Positions 5,428-44,408 of a stretch of 64,000 nt of DNA are shown here, piece after piece. Position 1 is the stretch's first letter, and each line of letters opens with the position of its first letter. Source of the DNA: Streptomyces sp. NRRL B-3428 (lineage in GTDB: Bacteria > Actinomycetota > Actinomycetes > Streptomycetales > Streptomycetaceae); the NCBI GenBank assembly GCA_000721375.1, contig JOGW01000012.1, positions 186,001-250,000 of the forward strand, in the 5' to 3' direction. The notes under the pieces are model-generated. The model was not told the DNA's origin. It ran no database searches and saw only the letters and a list, made by a program, of their open reading frames with translations. The position numbers and the translations under genes are program-made.

Positions 5428-5428
5428 A

Positions 5429-9282
<3,854 letters not shown>

Positions 9283-19040: not shown

Positions 19041-20276
19041 CTACCCGATCTCCACGACCCTCGCCCAGTCGGGCACCGGATCGGGTTCGTACGAAGGGTC
19101 GTCCTCGTCGTAACCGCCGCGCGGGAACAGACCGACCACCGTCCGGCCCGGCGGCCGCTCCTTGGGCCACGGTGTCTGGCCGTCCGTGAGGGCCACGATC
19201 ACATCGGGTTTCGGCCCGCTGCGCAGCGCCTTGGCGAAGCCGGCGCGCAGATCCGTCCCGCCGCCGCCGAGCAGCGGAATGCCCTCGCCGCGGCAGAGCG
19301 GATGGACCAGATGGGCCGAGGAGTCGCAGGGCACCACGGTGACCAGGTCGCGACGGCCGCCCAGGGCCTGGGAGATGGCGGCGACCTCGATGAGTGCGGC
19401 GCCGAGTTCCGCGTCGCTCACGGAACCCGAGGTGTCGATCACGACGCTGACCCGGGGCGGCCTGCGGCGCAGGCTCGGCAGGATGATCCCGGGCAGGCTC
19501 ACCGAGCGGCGGGCGGGCCTGCCGTAGGTGTAGTCCTGGCCCACGCCGGGCGCTGTCGCGGCCGAGCGGATCGCGCCGCCGAGCAACTCGCGCCAGGGCT
19601 GCGGAGGTTGGAGCGCGTCCTCCGCCCAGCGCTTCCACCCCCGGGACGCCCGCCCCGGCCGGCCGCTGATGCCCTGCGCCACCCGGAACCGTACGAGCTC
19701 ACGTTCCTGTTCGGACAGTGCGTGCGCGCCGTGGGGGCCCAGATCCCACGGCCGGTCGAGGCCGTCTGCGCCGCTGCCACAGTCCAGCCAGGCGAACGCC
19801 TCGGTGAAATGGCCGAGGCGGAAGCGGCTCAGATACTCCTCCATCACCTGGCCGGCACCGAGGCCCAACGCCTCGGGGTGGACCGCGCCTTCGGGGAACC
19901 TGAGCCCGTCCCCGTACGCGTCGTCGTTGATCTCGCAGTCCGCCGCGATGTTCATCCGCAGCCGCTCGGCCCGACCGGCCAGTGCATGCTTGCTCGCGTA
20001 ACGGTCGCTGCGCCCGTGGTGGTCGCGCAGCAGATGCGACACCTCGTGGACCCAGACGGAGGCCAGGTCCTCGACCGGCGTACGCTCCACGAACCCGGGC
20101 GAGGCATAGCACCGCCAGTACCGGTCGACACCCATGGTCGGCACCTCACGGGAGGGGACGACGTGCAGCGCGAAGAGCGCGGTCGCCAAGTACGGCCGGG
20201 CGCGGACGGCTTGCAGACGGGCGGCGTAGAGCTTGGCCGTGTCCAGCTCCGTCGGGACGGCCGGTTCGGTACTCAA
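19041..20276 (-). CDS. VWA-domain protein with HExxH motif (MoxR partner)
   Basis: About 411 residues. The N-terminal half is a putative metallopeptidase-like domain with HEVSH (His77, Glu78, His81). The C-terminal half is a von Willebrand A domain with MIDAS motif DTSGS (Asp281, Ser283, Ser285). This is the DUF2201-type architecture that follows MoxR ATPases in many bacteria. The start is inferred as TTG at 20276, which overlaps the MoxR stop by 4 bp (TTGA); upstream in-frame sequence reads as a shadow of the ATPase gene. Expected to work with the ATPase in assembly or remodelling of an unknown client. Confidence 0.8.
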   Translation of the reverse strand: MSTEPAVPTELDTAKLYAARLQAVRARPYLATALFALHVVPSREVPTMGVDRYWRCYASPGFVERTPVEDLASVWVHEVSHLLRDHHGRSDRYASKHALAGRAERLRMNIAADCEINDDAYGDGLRFPEGAVHPEALGLGAGQVMEEYLSRFRLGHFTEAFAWLDCGSGADGLDRPWDLGPHGAHALSEQERELVRFRVAQGISGRPGRASRGWKRWAEDALQPPQPWRELLGGAIRSAATAPGVGQDYTYGRPARRSVSLPGIILPSLRRRPPRVSVVIDTSGSVSDAELGAALIEVAAISQALGGRRDLVTVVPCDSSAHLVHPLCRGEGIPLLGGGGTDLRAGFAKALRSGPKPDVIVALTDGQTPWPKERPPGRTVVGLFPRGGYDEDDPSYEPDPVPDWARVVEIG

Positions 20277-21526
20277 CTGCCCGTCCCTGCAGTCGCCTTG
20301 ACCCGTGCCGCGGCCTGGTCCGCTGCACGCGACATGGTCACCACGCCCGCGAGCTGCTCGATCGCCGCGGGTACGGGCCAGTCCTCGCGCCGCAGATGCG
20401 CCAGCGTGGTGGCGGGCACCACCACCAGGTCCGGAGCCCCCGTTTCCAGGGCGTGCACCAGCAGCGCCCAGGCCGCGTCCCACCTTGCGCGTTCCGGGCG
20501 CGCCTTGACCGCCGCGACCACGGAATCGAGTACGGCTTGGCGCAGATCCCCGCGTTCGGGCAGCCGGGCCGCCGTCGGATCGGCGAGCAGCAGCTCCGGG
20601 TCGGGCAGGTCCATCCGGTCGAGGCTCGCGAGCAGTTCGAACCCGGGCCCGTCACCGACCGTCCCTCGCACGAGCAGCGAGAGCACCTCGCGCGAGGCGT
20701 CGGCGGCGGTGGCGAACGCGACCAGGCGCAGTGTCATGTCCCAGGTACGCGGAGAGGGCCAGGCACCGCCGCGCCGGGTCTCGCTCTGCGGCAACTGATG
20801 CACCAGGGCGGCGCGTGCGGCCAGCAGACCGCACACGGCACGGCGTGCGAACTCCACGGAACCGGCGAGCCGCCCCGGATCGAGCATCGGCAGGGTGGCG
20901 CGCGGCCAGGTCCCGCCCAGACCGCGTACGACGACGTCCTGCTCATGCGCCCATTTCAGGTGGACGAACCGGTTGGCGAGCGGGGCGCTCAGCTCCCAGC
21001 CGTCGGCGGCCGAGGAGCGCGGGTTCGCGGCGGCCACGATCCGTACGCCGGGCGGCAACTGCAGCGCGCCGATGCGCCGTTCGAGCACCACTCGGAGCAG
21101 TGCGGCCTGCACGGCGGGCGCCGCGGTGGACAGCTCGTCGAGGAACAGCAGTCCCTTGCCCGCGCGTACGAGCCGCACCGCCCAGTCCGGTGGCGCCATC
21201 GGTACGCCCTGGCGTGCGGGGTCGTCCCCGACGATGGGCAGCCCGGCGAAGTCCGAGGGCTCGTGCACGCTCGCGATCACGGTGGTCAGGGGCAGTTCGA
21301 GCGCTTCGGCGAGCTGGGTGAGCGCGGCGGTCTTGCCGATGCCGGGTTCGCCCCACAGGAGCACGGGCAGATCGGCCGCGACGGCGAGGGTGAGGGCTTC
21401 GAGCTGGGTGTCGGTGCGCGGTTCGGTGGCGGTTGCCCGCAGACGGCCCAACAGGTCGTCCGCGATGTCGAGTTGAGTCGCGCCCGTCGGGCGTGCGGTG
21501 GTTGCGGTGCTTCCTTCAATGGCCAA
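20273..21526 (-). CDS. MoxR-type AAA+ ATPase
   Basis: A 417-residue AAA+ ATPase of the MoxR/AAA_5 class. Walker A is GEPGIGKT (59-66) and Walker B is GLLFLDELST. A sensor-1-like AAANPRS follows. Such ATPases act with VWA-domain partners as chaperones for metal insertion or protein maturation. Here the VWA gene overlaps its stop and an uncharacterised large gene lies 6 bp upstream, forming a three-gene operon. The client is unknown. Confidence 0.88.
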   Translation of the reverse strand: MAIEGSTATTARPTGATQLDIADDLLGRLRATATEPRTDTQLEALTLAVAADLPVLLWGEPGIGKTAALTQLAEALELPLTTVIASVHEPSDFAGLPIVGDDPARQGVPMAPPDWAVRLVRAGKGLLFLDELSTAAPAVQAALLRVVLERRIGALQLPPGVRIVAAANPRSSAADGWELSAPLANRFVHLKWAHEQDVVVRGLGGTWPRATLPMLDPGRLAGSVEFARRAVCGLLAARAALVHQLPQSETRRGGAWPSPRTWDMTLRLVAFATAADASREVLSLLVRGTVGDGPGFELLASLDRMDLPDPELLLADPTAARLPERGDLRQAVLDSVVAAVKARPERARWDAAWALLVHALETGAPDLVVVPATTLAHLRREDWPVPAAIEQLAGVVTMSRAADQAAARVKATAGTGS

Positions 21527-21532
21527 GTGTGA

Positions 21533-23020
21533 TCACCTTTCGTTTGTCCGATTACGGGTGTTGCGGATACGTGCGTTGCGGGGGCTGGTGCGTTCTTCGT
21601 ACAGCCGATGCCAGTACTCCTTGCCGGAGAGCCCCGGCTGCGTGAACCCCGCGCGGTAGAGACCGTGTGCGATCCGGCGGCGCAGCGCCTCCTCCAGCGT
21701 GTCCCGCAGGGGGCCCGCACGCAGCTGGGCTCCCGCGCCGAGCAGGCCCTCCATGACGTCGAACGCTCCGGTGAAGTCTCCGTGCGCGAGGCGTTCGCGG
21801 ATGCCGCCGAAGGACTCGGGGTGGCGGTGTGCGTCGTCGATCGCCTGGAGGCAGGGCATCGGCGGCCCGCCGAGCGCCGCCAGGAGTTCCTCGCGGTGCA
21901 GGTCCGCCGGGTCGTGGTCGAGCGGCGCGAGCACGCCGTCGACCTGGGCGATGCGGTGCCGCGCGCCCCGGCAGTCGACGAGATGGGTGCGGCGCGCCGG
22001 CTCCCGGTCGGCTCCGCCACGCGAAGCCCGTACGCCCAGAGCCTTTGCCACCAGCGGATGCAGCCGCTCGCCGTCGATCATTCCGGCGTCGAGGAGTTCG
22101 AGGTCGGGCGGCACCCAGGTGGCGGCGTCGGGCAGCACCGGGACGTCGCCCGGGTCGGCCGTGATGCGCGAGGTCCGGGTGTCGATCGCGAGGCGCCGAC
22201 CGGATCCGAGGCGGACGCCGACGAGTCCGGGGCCGACGGGCGCGTCCGCCTCGGGCCCTTGTGCCGCGTCCCCGGCGTCCGGCCCGTATCGCCCGGCGGC
22301 GAGCACGAGCCGCGCCTCGGCCGACCATTGCGCCACCGCCCAGTGCGACTCCACCTCCCTTGCCCAGGTGGGCAGTTGGACCGGATCAGCTGCCCAAGAG
22401 GGGCGCTGGGACCCGCGTCCGGTCAAGGACGGAACCCCTGCACCTCCCGGCCCGTCGACCAGACCGGCCCTCTCCCGCAGCTCCCCCGCCCGGCGCGCGT
22501 CCCACAGATGCCGGTGCAGATCGAGCCGGAAGCGGGCGCTCGGCCGCGGGTGCGGATGGGGCGGGCCTTCGGTCAGGGTCCCGTCCCACACGGTGAGGCT
22601 GATCCGCTGTCCGGCGTCGGCCCAGGCCGGCGGGGTCCGTACGACGAGATGCAGCCGACGGCCCGCCACACCTGTTCCGTAGCGCGCGAGGGAGATCGTG
22701 ACGCCGGGCCGCAGCAGGCCGTCAGGACCGATCCGCGGCAGGTGCCAGCGCAGCAGGTCGGGTGCGAAATGCCGTAGATCAGCACGGAGTCGGGCTGTGA
22801 GTTCGCCGCCGTACGTGGCGGCCAGGCGCCGCAGATCGAGATCGACGTCCACGCGTGCCGCGGCGCACGCACCCGCCCAGTCCCCCGCTTCACGGCGGAC
22901 GGTGGCGGTGTCGATCATGGTGGGCGGCACGGCGAACTCTCGCACGCGCCGCCAGAACGCAAGCCGGTGATCACCGGCTTGAACAGTGGGTCGGGTCCCG
23001 GTTCCGGTCTCGGTGAGCAT
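21533..23020 (-). CDS. Uncharacterised protein of MoxR-VWA operon
   Basis: A 495-residue soluble protein that I do not recognise. It is rich in Arg and acidic residues, has no membrane segment and no signal peptide. It contains several WxxP-type motifs (DLLRWHLPRIGP; LPTWAREVESHW; AATWVPPDLELL) and a conserved-looking C-terminal YRAGFTQPGLSGKEYW segment. The ATG at 23020 is preceded by AAGGTGAG. Its stop is 6 bp from the MoxR start, so it is the first gene of the operon and probably supplies the substrate-specific component. No function can be assigned. Confidence 0.7.
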   Translation of the reverse strand: MLTETGTGTRPTVQAGDHRLAFWRRVREFAVPPTMIDTATVRREAGDWAGACAAARVDVDLDLRRLAATYGGELTARLRADLRHFAPDLLRWHLPRIGPDGLLRPGVTISLARYGTGVAGRRLHLVVRTPPAWADAGQRISLTVWDGTLTEGPPHPHPRPSARFRLDLHRHLWDARRAGELRERAGLVDGPGGAGVPSLTGRGSQRPSWAADPVQLPTWAREVESHWAVAQWSAEARLVLAAGRYGPDAGDAAQGPEADAPVGPGLVGVRLGSGRRLAIDTRTSRITADPGDVPVLPDAATWVPPDLELLDAGMIDGERLHPLVAKALGVRASRGGADREPARRTHLVDCRGARHRIAQVDGVLAPLDHDPADLHREELLAALGGPPMPCLQAIDDAHRHPESFGGIRERLAHGDFTGAFDVMEGLLGAGAQLRAGPLRDTLEEALRRRIAHGLYRAGFTQPGLSGKEYWHRLYEERTSPRNARIRNTRNRTNER

Positions 23021-23220: not shown

Positions 23221-23580
23221 ATGAGCACGGAAGCTCCCCGAGTGGAGCTCACCCCCGCAGCCGGTGAGCTGCTGCGGAAACTGCGTGAAGCCCATGGGCC
23301 ACTGATGTTCCACCAGTCCGGCGGCTGCTGCGACGGCAGTTCGCCGATGTGCTACCCGGAGGGCGAGTTCCGCACCGGCGACTCCGACGTCCTGCTCGCG
23401 TCGCTCGCGGTCGAGGGGGTGACGGAGCCGATCGGGTTCTGGATGTCGAAGAGCCAGTACGAGGTGTGGAGTCACACCCGGCTGATCGTCGACGTGGTCG
23501 AGGGCCGCGGTGGCGGGTTCTCGCTGGAGGCACCGGAAGGGGTCAGGTTCCTGATCCGCTCCCGCATGCTCGGGACGTGA
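23221..23580 (+). CDS. DUF779 family protein
   Basis: A small soluble protein of 119 residues belonging to DUF779, which is often found next to aldehyde dehydrogenases. The conserved Cys-rich motif GGCCDGSSPMCY at about residues 38-49 could bind a metal. A strong ribosome site (GGAGG) precedes the ATG. No aldehyde dehydrogenase gene lies beside it here, so it is an orphan copy. Function is unknown. Confidence 0.8.
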   Translation: MSTEAPRVELTPAAGELLRKLREAHGPLMFHQSGGCCDGSSPMCYPEGEFRTGDSDVLLASLAVEGVTEPIGFWMSKSQYEVWSHTRLIVDVVEGRGGGFSLEAPEGVRFLIRSRMLGT

Positions 23581-23587
23581 GCCGTCC

Positions 23588-23643
23588 CAGGGCTTGGCGT
23601 TGCTGACGATGACCCGCGTCAGGGCTTGAGGTTGCTGACGATG
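23588..23643. repeat. Tandem duplication of a gene 3' end (32-bp period)
   Basis: Two 24-bp copies, 23588-23611 and 23620-23643, differ at only two bases. The second is the last codons and stop of the small membrane protein gene on the minus strand. The first is a duplicate downstream of that stop with the stop codon lost. It occupies the gap between the convergent DUF779 and small membrane protein genes. Confidence 0.75.
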
Positions 23644-23813
23644 TTGGCGGTCGCCGTCAGACCGTTCTGGATGGTCGGCGCCATGCTGGTGCTCGCCAGG
23701 TAGAAGCCGAGCAGTACGCAGACGAGCGCGTGCGTGATCTTCAGCGCCCCGTTGCGCAGGAACACGATCGCGAGGATGAGCAGCAGCAGTACAACTGACA
23801 CCGAAATGGCCAT
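23619..23813 (-). CDS. Small two-helix membrane protein
   Basis: Sixty-four residues. Residues 4-20 form a hydrophobic helix (VSVVLLLLILAIVFL), then a short RNGALKITH turn, then a second helix (ALVCVLLGFYLAS). The tail ends SNLKP. Small proteins of this kind are common in Streptomyces, and similar ones sit near conjugation or DNA-transfer genes, but nothing of that sort is nearby. GGGAG lies eight bases before the ATG. Function unknown. Confidence 0.72.
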   Translation of the reverse strand: MAISVSVVLLLLILAIVFLRNGALKITHALVCVLLGFYLASTSMAPTIQNGLTATANIVSNLKP

Positions 23814-23832
23814 CGTCCGGACTCCCTACGCG

Positions 23833-23886
23833 CCTCCGCCACGTCAACACCGCGGCGTTTTCGCCGTCAGTGTGGCGTGGCGGAGG
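23833..23886 (-). terminator. Long compound hairpin after the GDPD-like gene
   Basis: An outer perfect 11-bp stem (23833-23843 with 23876-23886) encloses an inner CGGCG/CGCCG stem. It lies 103 bp beyond the stop of the GDPD-like gene and 20 bp before the small membrane protein start. It could end the former transcript or form the 5' leader of the latter. Confidence 0.6.
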
Positions 23887-23988
23887 GGCCGTCCGGTCGA
23901 CTGACATGTCCTCCGAACGTGTGTTGACGGGGAGTGACGGTCCCCCGCAGAGGTGCCGGTGCGCCTCGTCAGTGCGGGTCGGAGTGGG

Positions 23989-24849
23989 TCAGTGTCCGTC
24001 GTACGCGTCCAGGAAGGCTTCGAGCGCCACCAGGTCGTCGGTGTTGATGTGGTCCGCGTCGGCCGCGATCAGCTCCAGCCAGACGGCTCCGCGTTCGGCG
24101 CCGGGCAGATCGGGCGTGGCCCAGAACCGTACGCGCTGGCCCCGGCTGTGCGCCGTCCCGATGATCTGCTGCAGCTTGGCGCGTTCGGCTGCCGGCATCG
24201 GGCCTGCGCCCTGCCAGGTGAAGTGATTGGTCCAGTTGTCGCTGATCAGGGGCGCGAACGCAGCGGTCGCGGGGCCGCCCAGATCCGCGAGGCGGCCGTC
24301 GTAGAACGCGTACCGCACCTGCTGCGCCTCCATCGGCGCCCGCGCGGCCCGGTCCCCGGAGATCACCGCGGTGACGGCTCCCGGGCGCACCTTTCCGTAC
24401 GCGTACGTGGTGAACAGGCGCCGGTAGCGGTGCAGTTGGCGGTGCAGCTCGGCGTATGCGGCGACTCCGTCGACCTTGATGTCGATCAGCAGTTGGAGGG
24501 GCTTGTGGTGGCCGCGGTACACGGACCCGTGGTGGCGGCGCACCCGTTCGGCCAAGGGCTTCAGATACAGGGATTCGAGGGTGCGTGCGGGGTCGAGGTC
24601 CACCGGGTCGTGGGCGACGAGCAGGTCGCCGTTCACGAGGAAGATGTCCGCTTCGACGCTGGTGAAGCGGTGGTCGAGCGCGTCGAGCAGGGGGCGGGTG
24701 TGCAGATAGTCGTTGTGCGCGTGGGCTCGCTTCAGCGGCCTTCTGTCCGGCCTGCATCCGCTCGCCTGCGCGTACGAGGGGACGGCGAGCGCACCGGCTG
24801 CGGCGGCGAGGGTGGTGACGGCGGTGCGACGGGTCACTTCTAAGGCCAT
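23989..24849 (-). CDS. Secreted GDPD/PI-PLC-like phosphodiesterase
   Basis: A 286-residue protein with a twin-arginine-like signal (TRRTAVTTLAAAAGALAVPSY). The mature part begins with the TIM-barrel PLC-like phosphodiesterase motifs AHAHNDYLH, VEADIFL and LLVAHDP, which supply the catalytic His and metal-binding Glu/Asp. It ends with a glycerophosphodiesterase-like NTDDLVALEAFL strand. The shape matches AIM6-like members of the superfamily. It should cleave phosphodiesters outside the cell, but the lipid or sugar substrate is unknown. Confidence 0.78.
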   Translation of the reverse strand: MALEVTRRTAVTTLAAAAGALAVPSYAQASGCRPDRRPLKRAHAHNDYLHTRPLLDALDHRFTSVEADIFLVNGDLLVAHDPVDLDPARTLESLYLKPLAERVRRHHGSVYRGHHKPLQLLIDIKVDGVAAYAELHRQLHRYRRLFTTYAYGKVRPGAVTAVISGDRAARAPMEAQQVRYAFYDGRLADLGGPATAAFAPLISDNWTNHFTWQGAGPMPAAERAKLQQIIGTAHSRGQRVRFWATPDLPGAERGAVWLELIAADADHINTDDLVALEAFLDAYDGH

Positions 24850-24872
24850 GACTACCTCTCAGAGCGACGGAC

Positions 24873-24900
24873 GGGCGGGACCGAGTATGCGGTCCCGCCC
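24873..24900 (-). terminator. Terminator of the RuBisCO operon
   Basis: A perfect 10-bp inverted repeat, GGGCGGGACC (24873-24882) and GGTCCCGCCC (24891-24900), with an 8-base loop, lies 63 bp past the RuBisCO stop and before the next leftward gene. It marks the operon end. Confidence 0.75.
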
Positions 24901-24963
24901 ACCCCGAGTGGCAGTGTGCTGAAGGGAGTTGGTCAGCCATTCACCCGTGGATCATGTCCGGCC

Positions 24964-26343
24964 TCACTTGACGCCGAGCTCGTCGCGCCAGTTCGGGTAG
25001 AACCGGTCCGCGTCGGCCTGGAAGGACTCGAACGCGCCCTTGAGCTCCGCGTGGTCCTTGGCGTACTCGGTGAGCTTGACGCCCTTCATCCAGGCGTCCT
25101 GCGCCTGGCGCAGCGACTTGGCGCCGGCGGTGCCGCCGTCCTTGTGGCCGAAGGCACCGCCGCCCGAGGTCTGGATCACGTTGGAGTGGCCCAGGTTGTC
25201 GAAGAAGCCGGGCAGGCGCAGGGCGTTCATACCGCCGGAGATGATCGGGGTGGTGGACTTCATGCCCAGCCACTCCTGATGGAAGTACGGGCCGTCGGCC
25301 GAGTCCTGCTCCAGCATGAAGGCGATGGCCTTGTCGGCGGCGTCGCCCTCCATCTTGCCGTAGCCCATCGTGCCGGTGTGCATGCCGGAGGCGCCCTGCA
25401 GTCGGGTCATCTTGCAGTGCACGAAGGAGGTGTAGCCGCGCTGCGACTGCGGGCTGGTGACGGCCCCGTGGCCGGCCCGGTGGAAGTGCAGGAACTGGTG
25501 GGGGAAGTTCCGGCGGGCGGTGGTGACCGAGGTCGGTCCGGCCACGTAGCCGTCGACGAGGAAGGCGACGTGGTCGGCGTTCTCGGCGAAGGTCTCCAGG
25601 ATGAACTCGCCGCGGGCGATCATCTCGGCCGGGTCGTCGGCGGTGATGTTGGCGGAGAAGAGCTTGGCCTCGCCGGTCTCGTCCTGGGCGCGGCGCATCG
25701 CGTCGGCCACGGCCTTCATCGTGTCCTTGAGCGGGGCGAAGACCTGGTTGCCCTGGGGCTCGTCGTTCTTGATGAAGTCGCCGCCGAGCCAGAACTGGTG
25801 GCAGGCGTCCGCGAACGGCTGCGGGCGCAGGCCCAGCTTCGGCTTGATGATGGTGCCGACGACCATGCCGCCGTTGACGACCGGGCGGTCGAGGACCCGC
25901 CACATGTCCTGGATGTTCATCATCGGGCCGTCGAACAGGCGCAGGTAGGCCGGCGGCACGTAGAAGTCGTGCATCTTGGCGTACTCGACGTCGCCCATGC
26001 CCTGGTTGTTGCCGATGGTCAGGGTCAGGAAGGAGGCGATCATCGCGCGGCCGTCGATGATGTTCCGGTCGAAGAGCTCGACCGGGTACGCGATCTTCAT
26101 GAGCTCCTTGGCCTCGTCTATCTCGTAGACGAGCGCGTCGACGCCCTTGGTGAAGTCGTCGGTGGTGCAGACCTCGACGTTGGTGCCGGTCGAGGACTCG
26201 GCGGCGAAGTGCGCGGCGGTGGAGAGGTAGTCGCCGTAGCCCGCCTTGGGCTTCATGGTGTACGCGCAGAGCACATGGCGGCCGCCCTCGATGAGGGCCT
26301 CCTCGGTGAGTGCGAGGTTCGCATAACGGCTCGACTGGTCCAT
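24964..26343 (-). CDS. cbbM: Form II ribulose-1,5-bisphosphate carboxylase (RuBisCO)
   Basis: Large-subunit-only RuBisCO of form II, 459 residues. The first residues ([12 protein letters not shown]) and long internal stretches match what I remember of Rhodospirillum rubrum CbbM, with one extra residue near position 40. Every active-site residue is present: Glu49, Thr54 and Asn55 (loop N-terminus), Asn112, Lys167 (TIIKPKLGL), carbamylated Lys192 with Asp194 and Glu195 ([11 protein letters not shown]), His288 and Arg289, His322, loop-6 Lys330 (GYGKMEG), Ser369 and the GGGAFGH phosphate loop. It is therefore a true carboxylase rather than a RuBisCO-like protein. AGGAG precedes the ATG. It is the last gene of an operon with kinases, phosphatase, dehydrogenase and permease, and without phosphoribulokinase, which points to sugar catabolism rather than autotrophy. 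Confidence 0.95.
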
Positions 26344-26388
26344 GGTTCGTTCTCCTGAAGGGTTGCTGATACGTGTGCGGGGGCTTGT

Positions 26389-27426
26389 TCAGCCCTTGAG
26401 GACCTCGGGGTTGGCGCAGTGCGCGAGGGGCTCGCCGCGCAGGTAGCGGCCGACCTCGCCGGCGACGATGCGGGCCGCCTTGTGCGCGACCTCCTGGCTG
26501 CCGCCCGCGATGTGCGGGGTCATGACGATCCCCGGGGTGGTGAGCAGCCGCGATCCGGCGGGGACGGGCTCCTCGGGGAAGACGTCGAACCCGGCGCCGG
26601 AGAGCTGACCGGAGTCGATCGCGTCGCACACCGCGTCGTAGTCGAGGAGCGCGCCCCGGGCGCAGTTCACCAGGACCGACCCGCGCGGCATCTTCGCCAG
26701 CTGTTCGGCGCCGATCATGCCCTTGGTCTCCTCGGTGACGCGGGCGTGCAGGGAGACGATGCGGGAGCGGGTGAGCAGCTCGTCCAGGGAGACCAGCTCG
26801 GCGACACCTTCGACGAGTTCGGGCTTCACGTACGGGTCGAAGACGAGGACCTCGGCGCCCATCGCCTTGAGGACCTTGGCGACCCGGGAGCCGATCGCTC
26901 CGTATCCGATGAGACCGACGGTGGCGCCCTCGATCTCGATGCCGCAGTTGTCGTAGTCGTAGTAGTCGCCGCGCCACACACCGTTGCGCATCTCGAAGTG
27001 GGTGTCCCCGACTCCGCGGGCGGCGGCGAGCAGCAGCGTGAGGGTGTGCTCGGCGGTGGCCACCGCGTTGCGGCCGGGGGCGTAGCAGACGGCGACGCCG
27101 TGCTTGGTGGCCGCCTCCAGGTTCGCGTTGACCGGGCCGCCGCGGCTGATGCACATCAGCTTCAGGTCGGGGCAGTTGGCGAGCATGCGCTCGGTGAGCG
27201 GGGCGAGCTGGGTGACGCAGACCTCGACGCCCTGCAGTGCCTCGATCATCTCGTCCTCGGTGCCGGAGGCCTCGATGACCTCGGCGACCTTGCCGAACGG
27301 GGTGTGCGGCCAGGGGAGCTTGATCTCCTTGACGTCCACTGCGCCGTCGGTCGCCTGCTCGACCTCGTCGGTCAGCAGGTGCGGAAGGACGAAGTGGTCG
27401 CCCGCTGCGAGGACCTTGGTGCTCAT
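26389..27426 (-). CDS. D-2-hydroxyacid dehydrogenase (phosphoglycerate dehydrogenase-like)
   Basis: NAD-dependent D-isomer-specific 2-hydroxyacid dehydrogenase, 345 residues. The Rossmann loop is GYGAIG (174-179), with Asp197 (VFDP) indicating NAD over NADP. The catalytic residues are Arg257 (NCARGALL), Glu286 (FPEEP) and His305 (TPHIAGGS). The SRGGPVNAN motif resembles D-3-phosphoglycerate dehydrogenases. There is no C-terminal ACT domain, so it is not the housekeeping serine enzyme. In this operon it could reduce glyoxylate or hydroxypyruvate or oxidise 3-phosphoglycerate. I start it at the ATG at 27426 (AAGGAG upstream); the frame remains open to 27624 inside the phosphatase gene. Confidence 0.88.
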   Translation of the reverse strand: MSTKVLAAGDHFVLPHLLTDEVEQATDGAVDVKEIKLPWPHTPFGKVAEVIEASGTEDEMIEALQGVEVCVTQLAPLTERMLANCPDLKLMCISRGGPVNANLEAATKHGVAVCYAPGRNAVATAEHTLTLLLAAARGVGDTHFEMRNGVWRGDYYDYDNCGIEIEGATVGLIGYGAIGSRVAKVLKAMGAEVLVFDPYVKPELVEGVAELVSLDELLTRSRIVSLHARVTEETKGMIGAEQLAKMPRGSVLVNCARGALLDYDAVCDAIDSGQLSGAGFDVFPEEPVPAGSRLLTTPGIVMTPHIAGGSQEVAHKAARIVAGEVGRYLRGEPLAHCANPEVLKG

Positions 27427-27482
27427 GAGGGGTTGCTCCTTGGGTGGTGCACTGTGGGGGTGGTAGTGCGGGTGGTACGTGG

Positions 27483-28112
27483 TTACTTGCCGGGTCCGTA
27501 CGGGGCGTTGAACCTGATGAGGGACGCCTGGCCGTGTCCGATCCGGACCTCGGTGAGGGTGCCGTTGTCCAGGACCGGGAAGACCCGCCGGTACTCGTCG
27601 AGGCCGATGCCGAGCAGTTCGCACAGCAGCACCCGGTACAGGGCGTTGTGCGCGACGACCAGGACACGGCCGCCGGGGTGCTCCGCGGCGATCTCCTCGA
27701 GCAGCACCCGGGCCGCGCGGGCGGCCTTGCGCGGGTCGTTGCCGCCCGGCAGATGGTCGGTGACGGGCCGCAGGACGAACTTGGCGAGTTCCTCTGGGAA
27801 GGCCTCGCGCATCTCGGCGAGGTTCAGGCCTTCACCGCGGCCGAAGTCCAGTTCCAACAGCCGGGCGTCTTCGTGCAGTTCGAGCCCGAGCGCGCGGGCC
27901 GCCGGTTCGGCCGTGCGGCGGGCCCGGGACAGCGGCGAGGTGTACACCGCGTCGATCCGCTGTCCCTCGGCCCAGGTGCCGAGTTCATCGGCCTGACGCC
28001 GGCCGCGTTCGGTGAGCGCCACGTCGGCGCGGCCCGCATAGCGGTTCTCCGCGTGCCAGACGGTCTCGCCATGGCGTACGAGGATGAACTCGGTCGCAGG
28101 CATTCCACTCAT
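27483..28112 (-). CDS. Histidine phosphatase / phosphoglycerate mutase-like
   Basis: A 209-residue member of the histidine phosphatase superfamily. The phosphorylated His14 sits in LVRHGET. The second Arg63 is in SPLSRARRT, the acid Glu87 is in LELDFGRGEG and the second His155 is in VVAHN. All four core residues are present. Members act as phosphoglycerate mutases or as sugar-phosphate phosphatases, and the sequence does not decide between them. It overlaps the kinase stop by 4 bp (ATGA). Beside RuBisCO it may handle 3-phosphoglycerate or 2-phosphoglycolate. Confidence 0.85.
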   Translation of the reverse strand: MSGMPATEFILVRHGETVWHAENRYAGRADVALTERGRRQADELGTWAEGQRIDAVYTSPLSRARRTAEPAARALGLELHEDARLLELDFGRGEGLNLAEMREAFPEELAKFVLRPVTDHLPGGNDPRKAARAARVLLEEIAAEHPGGRVLVVAHNALYRVLLCELLGIGLDEYRRVFPVLDNGTLTEVRIGHGQASLIRFNAPYGPGK

Positions 28113-31100
28113 CGGGCCGCCCTTTCCTTCGCGTGTGTTGCCACCGACTCGTCGAGCCAGCCCCTGCGGACGAGCTCGTCGAGGAACTCCAGGTAACGCG
28201 GGGTCCAGCGCTCATGCCGTACGGCATCGGGCTTGATCTCCGCGCCGCCGCGGACCATCGCGGCGGCCGCCTCCTGCACGGACACTCCGCTGGAGGTGGC
28301 CGCGAGCACCGCCATGCCGATGGCGCCCTCGGCCTGCTCGGGCAGCAGCACCGGACGGCCGAGTACGTCGGCGCGCAGCCGGTTCCAGTAGGGGTTCTTC
28401 GCGCCACCGCCGGTCAGCGTGAGCGGGCCGTCCACCGGCGCGCCGAGCTGGTCGAGGTAGTCGAAGCAGAGCCGTTCGATGAACGCGACGCCGAGGAGGT
28501 GGGCGTGGAAGCGCTCGGCCTCGTCGGCGGGCTCGCCGAGCAGGAAGCCCTCGGCCCGGGGTGCGCGGAACGGGAAGCGCTCGCCGCCGGTGGAGACCAG
28601 CGGATAGGCGACCGCGTCGCTGTCCGACTCGGCTGCCAGGACGGTGAGTTCGTCGAGGTCCGCGCCCTGGAACTCTCGCGAGATCACCCCGGCGCCACTG
28701 CTGGACGCACCGCCCGGCAGCCAGCTCTCGCCGGGGCCTCGGTGGCAGTAGACGACGCCGTTCGGGTCGCGTACGAGATGCGGGCTCATGCCCTTGAACA
28801 CCAGGGTCGTACCGAGCACCGAGTTCCACGCACCGGGGGTCAGCGCGCCCGCGCCGATCTGGGCGGCGCAGCCGTCGGTCATACCCGCGACGATCGCCGT
28901 GCCCGCCGGAATCCCGGTGGCCTCGGCGGCCTCGGCGCACACCGTGCCGATGACCGCTCCCGGCCGTACGACCTCGGGCAACAGCCCTTCCGGTACGTGG
29001 AGTTCTGCCATGACCTCCTGCGGCCACCGCTCCTCGATCAGGTGGTAGCCGGTCTTGAGCGCGTGGCTCGCGTCGCTCGCGACCTGGCGGCCCGCGAGCC
29101 GCCAGGTCACGAGGTCGGTCTGGTGCAGCAGCCGAACCCCTGTACCGGCTGCTGCAACCTTGTGATCCAGGAGCCAGAGCAGCTTCGGCAGCGCCCAGGA
29201 CGGCTGCATCGAGCGGTAGCCCAGCTCCTGCCAGACGGACTCCCCCGCCTGGTTCGCGCGGCCGGCCTGGTCGGCGGCCCGCCCGTCGTCGTACATCAGA
29301 CCCTGTGTGAGCGGGGTGCCGTCCGCGTCCGCGAGGAGGATCGTGCCCGAAGTGCCGTCGATCGCAAGGCCCTTGATCCGGGCCGGTTCGATCTCGGCAA
29401 GCGCTTCGCGCGAAGCCTCCGCGAGGGCGCTCCACCACTGCTCGGGGTCCTGCTCGTGGCGCTTGCCGTCGCGCCGGCTGGTCAGCGGCCGCGAGGCGGC
29501 GGCGAGTACCCGGCCGGTGGAGTCGACGGCGACGCAGCGCGCGGACTGGGTGCCGAGGTCGAGGCCGAGCCAGACGGCGTCGGGAGCGAGTTCAGGCTGC
29601 ACGGAGAGCTCCTTCGAGACCCGCGCCGTCACGCGGACGGGAACGGGGAGGGTGCGACCGGAGGACCAGCCGGCCTCGCGGGCGAGGTTGCGCCAGTTGA
29701 GGAAGTCCTCGTAGCGGGCCGAGTAGAACTGGGACCACTTCGGGCTTGGCTCCCAAGTCGACGTCATCCGGACGTACTTGGCGGCCGCGCTGTGCATCGA
29801 GGACTCTGCGCCGGACAGGACGAGGCCCGTCAGGAACGCCCCCTTGGCACCGAGCTCGGTGTCCCCGGAACGGGCCGTGGGCACCCCGGTGGCGTCCGCG
29901 ATCAACTGGCACCAGTCGTCGTTGTTGGCTCCGCCGCCGCAGAGCCTGAGCTCGGTGACGGTCGTACGGGAGGCCACGAGCGAATCGCGCAGGACGAGCG
30001 AGAGCCCCTCGAAGACCGAGCGGGCCACGTCGGCCCGGCTGTGCTCCAGGGAAAGCCCCCAGAACGCGCCGCGCGCGGTGGGATCCAGGAACGGAGCGCG
30101 CTCACCGGCGGGTGACAGATACGGCATGAAGGAGAGTCCCTTCGCGCCGGGCTCCGCCTTGAACGCCAGCCTGCCGAGCTTCGGCGGGCCGTCCAGATCG
30201 AGCAACTTCGACGCCCAGACCAGGACTTCGGCGCCGTTGAGGGTCGGGAAGGCGCGCAGCACACGCTCGCGGCCCCGGTAGGCGATGTTGATGCCGGAGG
30301 GTTCGCCGCTCGTGTCCACCTCGTGGCGGACGATCTCGGTGCACAGTGTGGTGCCGAGGATCGAGCAGGCCTGGCCCGGGTTGACCACTCCCACACCGCG
30401 CGCGGTGGAGGCGATGTCGTAGGGGGCCATGACCACCGGAAGGCCCTCGGGTAGCCCGAGCTGTCCGGCGGCCTCGCGGGTGATCTCCGCGATCCGCTCC
30501 TCCTCGCCGAGCACCTTCGGCAGGAGCCGGCGGTACGCGGAGAGCCCGAACAGATCGATGATCTCGTCGTCGTAGTCGCCGGTGTCGTGGTTGAGGAACG
30601 GTGCGGAGGCGTCCGACTCGTCCATCGCCATCACACCGGTGAGGTTGTAGAAGAGCCACCCGGCCGCCGTCAGCGAGGACGCCGAGCGCGCGAGGCGCTG
30701 CGGATCGTGCGAACCGAGCCAGCTGAAGATCGCGTTGGGCATTCCGCTGCAGGTGAGCGAGCCGTTGCGGCGGTAGGCGTCCTCGAGGACGCCCTCCTTC
30801 TCCCAGCGCGTGAGGATCTCGCCGGCGCGGCCGTCCGACCAGAGGATGGCCGGTCCGGTGGGCTTGCCGTGCCGGTCCACCAGCCAGGCGTCGTCGCCCT
30901 GCGCGGTGAAGGTGACGAGCCAGACCGGGTCGTCGATGTCCGAGAGGACGTTGCGGACCGTGTAGACGACCGCGTTCCACACGGTGTCCATGTCCTGCTC
31001 GGCCCAGCCGGGGTGCCGGCGCAGCACCTCGGTGCCGATCCGGGAGACGGCGAGTTCGGTGCCGTTGTCGTCGAACACCACGGACTTGATCATCGTGGTT

Positions 31101-31126
31101 CCGACATCGATGGCGAGTACCGACAT
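28109..31126 (-). CDS. Tandem FGGY-FGGY carbohydrate kinase fusion
   Basis: One 1005-residue chain with two complete FGGY kinases. Domain 1 (about 1-490) has the phosphate loop DVGTTMIK at 7-14, catalytic Asp237 (APYDIAS) and the adenosine motif GGGANNDD at 397-404. Domain 2 (about 517-985) has DLGTQSAR at 523-530, catalytic Asp751 (GMTDGCAAQ) and TGGGAKN at 905-911. Both keep the catalytic base, so both should be active. Domain 1 looks like erythritol/AI-2/xylulose-type kinases and domain 2 like ribulokinase-type enzymes, but substrates cannot be fixed. FGGY kinases normally make one sugar monophosphate; two fused active domains could phosphorylate one sugar twice. No frameshift or internal start suggests an annotation artefact. 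It follows the permease by 3 bp. Confidence 0.92.
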   Translation of the reverse strand: MSVLAIDVGTTMIKSVVFDDNGTELAVSRIGTEVLRRHPGWAEQDMDTVWNAVVYTVRNVLSDIDDPVWLVTFTAQGDDAWLVDRHGKPTGPAILWSDGRAGEILTRWEKEGVLEDAYRRNGSLTCSGMPNAIFSWLGSHDPQRLARSASSLTAAGWLFYNLTGVMAMDESDASAPFLNHDTGDYDDEIIDLFGLSAYRRLLPKVLGEEERIAEITREAAGQLGLPEGLPVVMAPYDIASTARGVGVVNPGQACSILGTTLCTEIVRHEVDTSGEPSGINIAYRGRERVLRAFPTLNGAEVLVWASKLLDLDGPPKLGRLAFKAEPGAKGLSFMPYLSPAGERAPFLDPTARGAFWGLSLEHSRADVARSVFEGLSLVLRDSLVASRTTVTELRLCGGGANNDDWCQLIADATGVPTARSGDTELGAKGAFLTGLVLSGAESSMHSAAAKYVRMTSTWEPSPKWSQFYSARYEDFLNWRNLAREAGWSSGRTLPVPVRVTARVSKELSVQPELAPDAVWLGLDLGTQSARCVAVDSTGRVLAAASRPLTSRRDGKRHEQDPEQWWSALAEASREALAEIEPARIKGLAIDGTSGTILLADADGTPLTQGLMYDDGRAADQAGRANQAGESVWQELGYRSMQPSWALPKLLWLLDHKVAAAGTGVRLLHQTDLVTWRLAGRQVASDASHALKTGYHLIEERWPQEVMAELHVPEGLLPEVVRPGAVIGTVCAEAAEATGIPAGTAIVAGMTDGCAAQIGAGALTPGAWNSVLGTTLVFKGMSPHLVRDPNGVVYCHRGPGESWLPGGASSSGAGVISREFQGADLDELTVLAAESDSDAVAYPLVSTGGERFPFRAPRAEGFLLGEPADEAERFHAHLLGVAFIERLCFDYLDQLGAPVDGPLTLTGGGAKNPYWNRLRADVLGRPVLLPEQAEGAIGMAVLAATSSGVSVQEAAAAMVRGGAEIKPDAVRHERWTPRYLEFLDELVRRGWLDESVATHAKERAAR

Positions 31127-31129
31127 GGG

Positions 31130-32497
31130 TCACAGTCCCTTCGAGGAAGTGGCGGCGGCCAGGTCACGACCGTCGGCGGCGGGCTGTGGCAGGGGTTCCA
31201 CCACGTCTTTAGTGGGGGTGGTCTCGGTGGGGGTGGTCGTCTTGAGGAAGAGGGTGAGTACGGCGCTCACCGCGTGGAATCCGGCGAAGATCCAGGTGAC
31301 TCCGCCGACCCCGATCGGACCGAGGAAGAGGCTCACCGTCAGCGGGCCCAGGAAGGTGGACGCGCCGGCGCCGAGGTTCAGGGCGGCCATGGCCTGGCCC
31401 TTGTGGCTGGGTGCGATCGCGGTCATCAGGGCGGAGAGCGGAACGTATCCGGAGAGCGTGGCGCCGTAGAAGACCGCGACGAGCAGACACAGGGCGTAGG
31501 AGTCACCGACGGCGTTCGGCACATAGAAGAGGATCAGCGTGGAGAGCGTGCAGCCGATGCCGCCGCAGTACGCGACCGTCGTACGCCAGCCGATGCGGTC
31601 GCCGATCACACCGAACATCAGGTTGGTGAAGATGTTGGTGCCGAACATGACGGCCACCAGCCGCAGCCACTGCTCGTTGCTCAGGCCCACGGTGTTCACG
31701 AACCAGACCGGCAGCATGACCATGAAGCCGAACTGCGAGGCCGTGTTGAACATACGGACCGCGGCGCCCGCGCCGACCCGGGGGTTGCGGTAGAGGATCG
31801 TCAGCGAGCCGACCAGACCGGCCATCGGGGAGTCACCGGGCGGGGCGAGGCGCTGGGAACCGGTCTTCTCCTTGATCAGGAGCAGCGGCAGTACACCGCC
31901 GACCACGACGACACCGAGCGCGAACCAGAGGGTGGTGTACTCGCCGACGACGGGGATGAGCAGGCTCGCGCAGAGCGAGCCGAGCGTGGGCATACCGGCC
32001 GAGAAGGCCGACCAGAACCAACCCATCGCGCTGCCCATCTGCTTTTGCGGCGCGACGGCGGCGATCCAGACGAGGAAGGCGTAGGCGAAGAGGGGGAAGG
32101 CGAGGCCGCGCAGTGCGTAGGCCAGGAGCAGCAGTCCGTACGACTTGCTGGGTATCGCGACCGTCAGGAAGAAGACGTGCGTGACGGCGAAGGAGATGAG
32201 GCCCAGCCACATGACCTTGCGGGGACCCCACAGATCGGACAGGGCGCCGGAGAACCACGCGGCGATCGCGCCGGTGATGCCGTACACGGTGAAGATCATC
32301 GCCACGCTCGAAGCAGCGATGCCGAGGCCTTCGAGATAGGGCGAGAGATAGCCGGCCTCGATACCCACACCGGTCATGAAGATCAGCAGGCCGAGATAGC
32401 CGTACGAGAGGGAGTGCGGGATACCGAGGCGGCCGAGCGTGCTCGGTGCCTGGTCCGTGCCGGCTGCTTGCGCGGCCGGCATGGGGGTCTTCGTCAT
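31130..32497 (-). CDS. MFS permease, polyol-type (RbtT/CsbX-like)
   Basis: A 12-helix major facilitator permease of 455 residues. The helix 2-3 loop has a variant of the MFS signature (GALSDLWGPRKVMW) and the half-repeat motif is GVIGDRIGWR. The first helix segment FMTGVGIEAGYLSPYLE resembles the GxGxExGxLSP motif I associate with ribitol, D-arabinitol and CsbX-type permeases, so I infer a sugar-alcohol or pentose substrate. It is the first gene of the operon, preceded by the DeoR-type operator region, and divergent from the regulator. Confidence 0.85.
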   Translation of the reverse strand: MTKTPMPAAQAAGTDQAPSTLGRLGIPHSLSYGYLGLLIFMTGVGIEAGYLSPYLEGLGIAASSVAMIFTVYGITGAIAAWFSGALSDLWGPRKVMWLGLISFAVTHVFFLTVAIPSKSYGLLLLAYALRGLAFPLFAYAFLVWIAAVAPQKQMGSAMGWFWSAFSAGMPTLGSLCASLLIPVVGEYTTLWFALGVVVVGGVLPLLLIKEKTGSQRLAPPGDSPMAGLVGSLTILYRNPRVGAGAAVRMFNTASQFGFMVMLPVWFVNTVGLSNEQWLRLVAVMFGTNIFTNLMFGVIGDRIGWRTTVAYCGGIGCTLSTLILFYVPNAVGDSYALCLLVAVFYGATLSGYVPLSALMTAIAPSHKGQAMAALNLGAGASTFLGPLTVSLFLGPIGVGGVTWIFAGFHAVSAVLTLFLKTTTPTETTPTKDVVEPLPQPAADGRDLAAATSSKGL

Positions 32498-32811
32498 TGA
32501 TTTCCCCGATCAGCGTCGATGAGTGAGGGCCTGTGTCATAGCGGATACGACGCAGGCGCTGAGGACCGTGGGGCGGCACGGTCGGCGGACCGGCGACGGT
32601 GGCGGTCCGTGTCCGGGGTGTCGGCGCTACCTCTGCGCTCCGGACATCACCGAGCTAACAAAACGGGCGAAACACGGGTCAACTTTCCGTAAACACCTCC
32701 CCTGGTGGGGTCGGGTGGCCGTGTGAGGAGGACCTACGGCCCCTGCCCCTGACCTGCGGTGTCGACGGACGATCAAGTGAAGTGCCTGAGATCGTCACAC
32801 GGGGAGTTCAC
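32498..32811. promoter_or_regulatory. Divergent control region of the RuBisCO operon and deoR
   Basis: A 314-bp gap. On the minus strand TTGACC (32682-32677) and TTAGCT (32658-32653) are spaced by 18 bp and could be the -35 and -10 of the operon promoter. Two direct repeats, GGCGAAACA (32666-32674) and CCGTAAACA (32687-32695), are exactly 21 bp apart, two helical turns, and sit on either side of the -35. Tandem repeats with this spacing are typical of DeoR-family operators. The predicted leader is about 150 nt; no riboswitch fold was recognised. Confidence 0.55.
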
Positions 32812-33645
32812 ATGGATCCGACACAGGACCAGGGGGTTGAGACCGCTCGGAGCGCAACCGCCAAGGACCGGGGGGACCTGCGCGACGAGCGTCGGCGGCT
32901 GATCCGGGAGGCCGTGATCTCACACGGCTACGTGCGTGCGGCCGATCTCGTCGCCGAGCACGCCGTCTCGTTGATGACGATCCACCGCGATCTGGACCAT
33001 CTGCAGTCGCAGGGCTGGCTGCGCAAGACGCGCGGCGGGGCGACGGGCATGTCCTCCACGCACTTCCACGGCACGGTTGCCGAGCGCGGCAACGCGATGG
33101 CGCAGACGAAACAGCAGCTGGCGCGCGCGGCGGCCCGGCTGCTCGCGCCCGGGCAGACGGTGCTGCTCGACGACAGCACCACCTGCGCCCGGATGACGCG
33201 CCACTTGTGCGAGTTCAACCCGCTGACGGTGATCACCAACTCGCTGCCCGTGCTCCAGTTGCTCTCCAAGGAGCAGGGCATCCAGCTGATCTCGCTCGGC
33301 GGGACCTACTTCCCCGCGTACGAGGCGTACATGGGCCTGCAGACGGCGGACAACGTCGAGCGCTTCCGTGCGGACGTGCTCTTCATGTCGACGACGGCGG
33401 TGACCAAGGGGCGGCTCTATCACACGTCCCCGGAGACGGTGCAGGTGAAGCGGGCGATGATGGCGGCCGCCGGGCGCCGCGTCCTGGTCTGCGACCACAC
33501 CAAGTTCCGCCGCGACGGCCTCTACGCGCTCGCGCCCCTCACGGACTTCGACCTCCTGGTGGTCGACGACGGTCTGCCGCCCGAGGAGATCAGGGCGATA
33601 CGAGGCCGAGGCACGGATGTGCTGGTGGTGCCCCGTACGGCATGA
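32812..33645 (+). CDS. DeoR family transcriptional regulator
   Basis: Repressor-type regulator of 277 residues. An N-terminal DeoR helix-turn-helix (about residues 23-75, ending LRKTRGGATG) is followed by a sugar-phosphate-sensing domain of the ribose-phosphate-isomerase fold (LLDDSTTCARM; VITNSLPVLQLL; VCDHTKFRRDGLY). Members respond to phosphorylated sugars, so the effector is likely an intermediate made by the kinase fusion. The ATG at 32812 has GGGGAG six bases upstream. It is divergent from the five-gene RuBisCO operon, which it most likely controls. Confidence 0.9.
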   Translation: MDPTQDQGVETARSATAKDRGDLRDERRRLIREAVISHGYVRAADLVAEHAVSLMTIHRDLDHLQSQGWLRKTRGGATGMSSTHFHGTVAERGNAMAQTKQQLARAAARLLAPGQTVLLDDSTTCARMTRHLCEFNPLTVITNSLPVLQLLSKEQGIQLISLGGTYFPAYEAYMGLQTADNVERFRADVLFMSTTAVTKGRLYHTSPETVQVKRAMMAAAGRRVLVCDHTKFRRDGLYALAPLTDFDLLVVDDGLPPEEIRAIRGRGTDVLVVPRTA

Positions 33646-43904: not shown

Positions 43905-44408
43905 TCACCTCGCCCCCTGCAAGAAGTACGAGCAGCGATACGGCCCCAGGGCGCTCGCCTCGGATGCCAGCGTGACCTGGACATCGTCCGGCCGGACCCC
44001 GTCCTCCAGGACGGACTGCGTGCGGGCCGCCGTGCACACCAACTGCCCGAGCAGCCCGGTCTCTTCGGGATCGACCCTCGCCTCGCCCAGGGCGATGGTG
44101 ACCCTGTTGCCGTCACCGGACGCGTTGATCGGGAGATCGCTGCTGACGAGCGTCGTGAGGCCCGCCGCCCGTTCCGCTTCCGAGGGCCCTTCGTGCAGCA
44201 GCTTGAGCGCGGCGTCGAGGCTGTCCACCCGCCGTTGCGGCCGGGATACGGCCTGCAGCCCGCCGTCGCCGACGAAGTACAGTCGCAGCGCCGTGCTCAC
44301 CCCGGTCGCGGCCTCACCGGCATCCACCACCCCGGTCGTGGGAATGCCGCACCCGGACGCCACCGCCGCTACGACCAGCAGACCTGCGGCACGCGTGACC
44401 CTCTTCAT
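43905..44408 (-). CDS. GerMN-type lipoprotein of two-component operon
   Basis: A 167-residue lipoprotein with signal and lipobox (VAAVASGC). The mature part resembles the GerMN (sporulation/LpqB-type) domain: a compact fold with LRLYFVGDGG and NRVTIALGEARVD strands. Its ATG overlaps the sensor kinase stop (ATGA). Lipoproteins encoded beside Streptomyces sensor kinases, such as CseA and LpqB, modulate the kinase, so this is probably an accessory sensor on the outer membrane face. Confidence 0.75.
   Translation of the reverse strand: MKRVTRAAGLLVVAAVASGCGIPTTGVVDAGEAATGVSTALRLYFVGDGGLQAVSRPQRRVDSLDAALKLLHEGPSEAERAAGLTTLVSSDLPINASGDGNRVTIALGEARVDPEETGLLGQLVCTAARTQSVLEDGVRPDDVQVTLASEASALGPYRCSYFLQGAR

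Follow-up and report, generated by a model that had tools for sequence, protein, structure and literature searches.

A form II RuBisCO at the end of an FGGY-kinase operon in Streptomyces suggests a role in sugar breakdown outside the Calvin cycle

We found that Streptomyces sp. NRRL B-3428 carries a form II RuBisCO gene as the last gene of an operon for carbohydrate kinases and a sugar-type permease. Streptomyces are aerobic heterotrophs, and RuBisCO is usually taken as a sign of CO2 fixation through the Calvin cycle. Since there is no sign of that cycle, and since RuBisCO appears to be a late addition behind genes for the use of five-carbon sugars, the arrangement suggests that the enzyme in the window (the whole stretch of 64,000 nucleotides that was analysed) may take part in sugar breakdown and not in growth on CO2. 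The reading that we prefer, with a probability of about 0.4, is that of an acquired RuBisCO in an operon free of the Calvin cycle, in which a pair of FGGY kinases would supply ribulose 1,5-bisphosphate (RuBP) and RuBisCO would convert it to 3-phosphoglycerate. The features of the locus, in window coordinates, are:

24873..24900, minus strand: terminator-like perfect hairpin of 10 pairs, 3' of RuBisCO (folding, alignment with the related genome G081)
24964..26343, minus strand: form II RuBisCO, 459 amino acids, last gene of the operon (family models, PDB matches, tree, residues)
26351..26356, minus strand: AGGAGA, resembling a ribosome-binding site, with 32 nt between it and the stop of the dehydrogenase and 7 nt between it and the RuBisCO ATG (by eye)
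26389..27426, minus strand: D-isomer-specific 2-hydroxyacid dehydrogenase, most similar to phosphoglycerate dehydrogenases and glyoxylate reductases
27483..28103, minus strand: histidine phosphatase, branch 1, nearest solved relative phosphoserine phosphatase 1
28109..29596, minus strand: FGGY kinase domain B, C-terminal half of a 1005-residue fusion, nearest solved relative SePSK
29597..31126, minus strand: FGGY kinase domain A (XylB/GntK-like, motif TAQGD) with the linker, N-terminal half of the fusion
31130..32497, minus strand: MFS permease, RbtT/DalT/CsbX family, with which the operon begins (TIGR00897, 510 bits, cut-off 375)
32812..33645, plus strand: divergent regulator of the DeoR/GlpR family (11 models matched, all under cut-off)

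From RuBisCO back to the permease the genes are separated by gaps of 45, 56, 5 and 3 nt, and a regulator similar to the DeoR-type one of the window adjoins the operon in relatives. The hairpin 3' of RuBisCO has no T run and is absent from a consensus terminator scan; the stretch after RuBisCO folds moderately well in the window (z = -2.05 against shuffles, 5 of 200 being as good), and z is -4.46 for the matching stretch of S. mesophilus and -3.82 for that of G081. A consensus scan, which says little in Streptomyces, found no sigma-70-like promoter at 23500-33000, and family models found neither a polyol (pentitol) dehydrogenase nor mtn genes in the window operon. For the phosphatase and the dehydrogenase we weighed the apionate, carboxyarabinitol and 2-ketogluconate pathways, none of which is favoured by the data.

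The RuBisCO reading frame lies on the minus strand, a point left unstated in the original prediction, and starts with ATG, the plus-strand reading of 24964-26343 being an unrelated frame. Its protein scores 872 bits over nearly its full length against PRK13475 (NCBIfam equivalog 'ribulose-bisphosphate carboxylase', cut-off 489), which we take to be the form II model, and the type III, large-subunit, OiaX and MtnW models all fall far under their cut-offs. The top PDB match is 7t1j (892 bits), followed by a chimera of R. palustris and R. rubrum; 5c2c, named Form II RubisCO, is also among the top matches, and the remaining top entries are presumably form II. The original prediction had described a complete form II enzyme with K167, K192, D194, E195, H288, H322, K330, S369 and the GGGAFGH loop, all of which are present at these positions, and family models and residues also set the protein apart from the RuBisCO-like proteins, a grouping that it had named as contrary to its claim. 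All 17 catalytic positions, with roles in carbamylation, Mg and RuBP binding (spinach numbering), are conserved in 42 of 42 form II proteins (four Streptomyces proteins, window included, and 38 others), and the four agree with all 194 columns that do not vary among the 38 non-Streptomyces proteins. A RuBisCO-like protein (form IV) is excluded by the OiaX and MtnW scores and by the 17/17 catalytic residues; the separation from other forms rests on family models and PDB matches, as the tree holds form II rows only. The window protein is thus, as far as sequence can tell, an authentic form II RuBisCO. Contamination is unlikely as its source, because its GC3 (0.976) is only slightly higher than that of the other operon genes (0.89-0.97), a ribosome-binding site precedes it, and orthologues occupy the same operon in other Streptomyces.

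No phosphoribulokinase (PRK), LysR/CbbR or carboxysome family was found among 50 of the 52 window genes, scanned at cut-offs from 1e-3 to 1e-10 (the other two lie at 23619-23813 and 43905-44408, and weak matches below the cut-offs are not displayed). Across the window genome PF00485 matches a single gene, which codes for a type I pantothenate kinase (448 bits), and in the three other RuBisCO-bearing Streptomyces genomes, G205 (taken as S. mesophilus YC504), G278 (taken as Streptomyces sp. TBY4) and G284, the matches are pantothenate kinases, apart from one P-loop kinase of G278 that is under all NCBIfam cut-offs (24 bits with the PRK model). These negatives come from four draft assemblies, each rated 100% complete, with the window genome in 74 contigs, and the same search was positive in 11 of 14 control genomes. 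We rejected a Calvin cycle on the lack of PRK in the four genomes and of CbbR or cbb neighbours among the scanned window genes. The R15P route to RuBP was likewise rejected, as the search for its isomerase (e2b2, TIGR00511) in the window genome returned a sole match, MtnA (TIGR00512, 342 bits, cut-off 279). What had been read from the letters, namely a RuBisCO at the end of a kinase/permease operon and a window free of PRK, a cbbR-type regulator and carboxysome genes, is therefore borne out by gene order and the family models, and the genome-wide search for PRK that had been proposed as a check found none in any of the four genomes.

Within the genus, RuBisCO is rare. Among 295 Streptomyces genomes (window genome included, drawn from a larger set), nine gave a match at E <= 0.001: four hold true orthologues (4/295, window included) with 91-100% identity, and the matches in the other five are 28-30% identical. 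All four carriers have RuBisCO directly after the operon dehydrogenase. Proteins 91-93% identical to that of the window are found, among the best 120 of 3494 matches, in Streptomyces TBY4, NPDC059917, NPDC001941, YC504, mesophilus and N35, where the YC504 and mesophilus entries are probably one strain (L011), and form II relatives outside Streptomyces are 65-88% identical. Among 80 form II loci, kinases or dehydrogenase of this kind (1e-10) were near RuBisCO at only two, both of Streptomyces, many of the other contigs being short.

A dehydrogenase at least 75% identical to that of the operon, a cut chosen after viewing the match list, is present in 24 of the 295 genomes, and 20 of these are without RuBisCO. 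We opened 11 of the 20 RuBisCO-free loci and five more distant ones (L113-L117). Kinase B and the phosphatase stand beside the dehydrogenase in 11/11 and RuBisCO in 0/11, and kinase A and the permease are found in 10/11; in L104 (G081) the contig stops short of the permease, regulator and kinase A, L103 and L112 have their permease on the far side of the regulator, and the L110 dehydrogenase, missed by the gene caller, was placed there by protein search. At the distant loci kinase B is again accompanied by the phosphatase and the dehydrogenase, RuBisCO is missing, and the transporters are mostly of the ABC type. One RuBisCO-free operon, with generic annotation, is carried by a 578-kb linear plasmid of Streptomyces sp. 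KN37 (L141, 4399-10055). Since the operon is found without RuBisCO more often than with it, the enzyme is an add-on to a pentulose/pentitol-type pathway. Dihydroxyacetone kinase genes adjoin the RuBisCO-free operon of G089 (L103, 3910-7275; DhaK by model, neighbours by eye).

The RuBisCO-free operon of G081 (L104) lies at the same chromosomal site as that of the window: its dehydrogenase is followed by a hairpin and then by the genes that come after RuBisCO in the window, with two extra genes among them. The hairpin regions of the window and G081 align (GCCAACTCC ... CATACTC), and this empty site, together with the aligned hairpin, shows that RuBisCO lies between the dehydrogenase stop and an old terminator-like hairpin. 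In G284, a transaldolase (531 bits; L091, 15901-17010) lies between RuBisCO and the downstream genes, with an extra hairpin between RuBisCO and transaldolase.

A midpoint-rooted tree built from 42 form II proteins groups the four Streptomyces copies in one clade (support 100/97), whose sister is a Rhodocyclaceae MAG (99/95), among Pseudomonadota, and the form II proteins of four other Actinomycetota loci (L067, L069, L071, L076) form a separate clade. Given this placement beside Rhodocyclaceae, the Streptomyces gene was apparently acquired from Pseudomonadota. The gene looks to be in use, since its dN/dS is 0.08-0.20 across the six pairs of the four Streptomyces genomes, with 0.07-0.38 for the other operon genes; it is the lowest of the operon in three of the six pairs, and lies above four of the five other operon genes in the pair of the window and S. 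mesophilus. Furthermore, GC3 of RuBisCO is 0.96-0.98 across the four genomes, and no stop interrupts it. On a kinase B tree the RuBisCO-bearing operons need two changes, and a single origin is recovered in 42% of bootstraps. The window RuBisCO is nearest to that of G284 (97%), but S. mesophilus has the closest dehydrogenase, permease and kinase domains (A and B), a mismatch that could be due to transfer between strains or to fast evolution on the S. mesophilus branch.

Among solved structures kinase B is closest to SePSK (172 bits over 427 residues). It falls under all NCBIfam cut-offs and keeps D8, T11, S72 and D221 of SePSK (numbering anchored on the T11A entry), with the ligand residue Ser222 changed to Gly. 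SePSK, of Synechococcus elongatus, is described as a probable D-ribulose kinase, its ATP use increasing with D-ribulose and dropping in the D8A, T11A and D221A mutants, whereas the similar kinase AtXK-1 shows hardly any response to D-ribulose (PMC4880283). Given the Gly at position 222 and the score of 172 bits, D-ribulose is a candidate substrate of kinase B. For kinase A the closest families are XylB and GntK, all models staying under cut-off; its motif is TAQGD in 17 copies out of 18 and TGQGD in the remaining one. Two other members of the FGGY family, FucK and RhaB, produce ketose 1-phosphates (PMC3245297).

Fusions of kinases A and B occur in the window and in P0004, P0005 and P0007, that is in at least two proteins besides the window (P0004, P0005), and an A-like domain is fused to a 2-hydroxyacid dehydrogenase in P0011 and P0012, in opposite orders; together these fusions point to a single predicted pathway. 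In S. mesophilus, TBY4, G284 and the opened relatives without RuBisCO each kinase has a gene of its own, and at the A-B linker (junction about 29597-29690) the window frame differs from that of S. mesophilus, a difference on which the fusion depends. Positions that separate RuBisCO-bearing from RuBisCO-free copies (four against 10 or 11 copies) number seven in kinase A and two in kinase B, with 20 in the permease, five in the dehydrogenase and four in the phosphatase. Since the kinases of RuBisCO-free operons are nearly identical, either the making of RuBP would predate RuBisCO or the kinases would do something else. A-like kinases adjoin genes like those of ketose-1-phosphate aldolases in L119 and L123, and of those tested in L119 the one with the highest score comes closest to ribulose-1-phosphate aldolase (185 bits, cut-off 300). 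Both loci (L119, 8929-16782; L123) hold kinase B, the phosphatase, the dehydrogenase and two more FGGY kinases, both of which have an aldolase-like gene behind them. Upstream lies an ABC transporter of sugar type, and L123 also has an alcohol-dehydrogenase-like gene.

Among 396 actinobacterial genomes, 17 have kinase B (E <= 1e-80), 28 a RuBisCO above 400 bits and 11 both; without the window genome the numbers are 16, 27 and 10 of 395 (Fisher p = 2e-9, uncorrected for kinship). The 400-bit threshold was set after viewing the match list, and the form of RuBisCO was checked in L126 only, where it matches the large-subunit model and has a CbbX-like gene nearby (by eye). In three of the genomes with both, PRK (355-375 bits, cut-off 236) lies a few kb from kinase B (L126, L129, L131). 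Such a neighbourhood ties kinase B to RuBP metabolism and, at the same time, argues against kinase B alone as the maker of RuBP; there it may be a D-ribulose salvage partner of RuBisCO in Actinobacteria. The kinase B-like genes near PRK are found at L126 9452-17137, L129 1500-6957 and L131 4414-9810.

In the pathway that we prefer, a RuBisCO gene from Pseudomonadota was fixed at the 3' end of an older Streptomyces operon, before the terminator-like hairpin, as the tree, the empty-site comparison and gene order show. The older operon would handle a ketopentose or pentitol, and D-ribulose would be imported or made internally. By family, kinase B could phosphorylate it on O5, and kinase A might, with less assurance, act on O1; RuBisCO, by its established chemistry, would then add CO2 and split RuBP into two 3-phosphoglycerates bound for lower glycolysis. 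The histidine phosphatase and 2-hydroxyacid dehydrogenase would belong to the older pathway, and it is a speculation that they could handle 2-phosphoglycolate from oxygenation. For the pathway we count the intact enzyme and its purifying selection, the tree, the constant place of RuBisCO in the operon, the empty site, the short gaps between genes, the failure to find PRK in the four genomes or R15P isomerase in the window genome, the SePSK kinship, the kinase fusion, the transaldolase after RuBisCO in G284 and the co-occurrence of kinase B with RuBisCO; the chemistry of FucK and RhaB and the aldolase-like genes of L119 and L123 speak for the O1 step. Against the pathway we count the greater frequency of the operon without RuBisCO, the near identity of its kinases there, the change of Ser222 to Gly, the poor response of AtXK-1 to D-ribulose, the lack of a polyol dehydrogenase, the phosphatase and dehydrogenase, which it leaves unexplained, and the PRK near kinase B in three genomes, where mere D-ribulose salvage would suffice. 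To our knowledge no FGGY kinase has a RuBP-forming activity, and the kinase step is the weak point of the proposal. In its bolder version, which we regard as rather doubtful, the 1005-residue double kinase would be a PRK-independent RuBP synthase, with one domain for O5 and the other for O1 of D-ribulose, and the operon would encode a pentose bisphosphate pathway of bacteria in which sugar is burnt by a form II RuBisCO; if true, it would be a new way to RuBP and apparently the first bacterial form II pathway of its kind.

RuBisCO could instead serve as a sink or repair enzyme, recycling minor, dead-end RuBP that arises from a side activity of the operon's or another kinase as pentulose phosphates accumulate, with the main flux going through the pentose phosphate pathway. 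That the operon runs without RuBisCO in relatives (11/11 opened loci), that few kinase substitutions accompany it and that its presence is patchy (4/295) all speak for such a role, but purifying selection in several genomes and the position in the operon favour a flux worth selecting, and a build-up of RuBP would have to be assumed; we hold this reading to be less likely than the preferred one, though a serious rival. RuBisCO-like proteins act in the apionate and methionine pathways, and an enzyme with a form II sequence might catalyse another reaction, of enolase or transcarboxylase type, on a branched or other pentulose bisphosphate. We hold this to be improbable: the OiaX and MtnW models of such pathways do match weakly, and several sugars are candidate substrates of the operon, but the model scores are far under cut-off, the operon has no mtn genes, and 17/17 active-site residues and 194/194 invariant columns are retained.

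Ordinary Calvin-type CO2 fixation, with a PRK missed or lost in an assembly gap, would fit an assembly in 74 contigs and the occurrence of PRK beside form II in four other Actinomycetota loci, by model in L067 and L076 (at least 490 bits) and by eye in L069 and L071. It is nevertheless very improbable, given four genomes rated complete in which no PRK was found, a search positive in 11/14 controls, and an operon regulator of DeoR and not LysR type. Least credible of all is a useless passenger gene, recently acquired and drifting: the patchy distribution would suit it, but it is largely refuted by selection, with dN/dS of 0.08-0.20 within the operon range, no stop, the catalytic residues kept and GC3 of 0.96-0.98.

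Known systems offer partial parallels to the proposed pathway. The archaeal RuBisCO of Thermococcales is of form III. The pentose bisphosphate pathway of Thermococcales is described as using RuBisCO, with a non-carboxylating form in halophilic archaea; pentoses are broken down via RuBP instead of the pentose phosphate pathway, and RuBP comes from nucleosides via R15P isomerase (PMC9700705). It is the closest known parallel, and it shares the idea, proposed here for Streptomyces, of RuBP used for pentose breakdown; Streptomyces differs in its bacterial form II, FGGY kinases and pentitol-type permease, and the window genome is without R15P isomerase. The Calvin-linked form II of Pseudomonadota and some Actinomycetota is the same enzyme form as the Streptomyces copies. 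Unlike these, the RuBisCOs of L067, L069, L071 and L076 have PRK beside them and form their separate clade, and an FBPase-like gene is present at the four loci (283 bits in L067, under cut-off). The Klebsiella ribitol and D-arabitol (rbt/dal) operons combine an RbtT/DalT-type permease, FGGY pentulose kinases and a polyol dehydrogenase; the window operon shares the permease type (TIGR00897) and FGGY kinases, but is without the polyol dehydrogenase and has instead the phosphatase, the 2-hydroxyacid dehydrogenase and RuBisCO.

Form II has been reported, with Calvin-cycle genes, in three Actinomycetota species, of Flaviflexus, Propionicicella and Propionicimonas, in a paper whose main text does not contain the word 'Streptomyces' (PMC12999727). 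In open-licence papers we found no report of RuBisCO in an FGGY operon or of form II in Streptomyces, in agreement with the earlier impression that the arrangement is undescribed in this genus, and we place it among the probable uses of RuBisCO apart from the Calvin cycle, in a form that seems new. It raises the question of whether bacteria use RuBisCO in sugar breakdown like some archaea, and, with related strains carrying the operon with and without RuBisCO, a RuBP source that does without PRK is directly testable; if real, such a source would be useful for engineering RuBisCO bypasses. It also cautions that RuBisCO alone is insufficient to call a genome autotrophic.

We also considered a CbbQ/CbbO-type activase, for which the window offers a MoxR-like ATPase (20273-21526) and a VWA protein (19041-20276), and set it aside: the VWA protein matches DUF2201 families, and neither gene is near the RuBisCO copy of TBY4. 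The set at 19041-22945, of MoxR-like ATPase, DUF2201/VWA protein and a further protein, lies 2-6 kb downstream of RuBisCO and resembles the CbbQ/CbbO pair in domain type only. Elsewhere the window holds a xanthine dehydrogenase-type gene set with XdhC (4618-9282) and a LUD-domain/CCG set resembling those for lactate utilisation (61039-63806).
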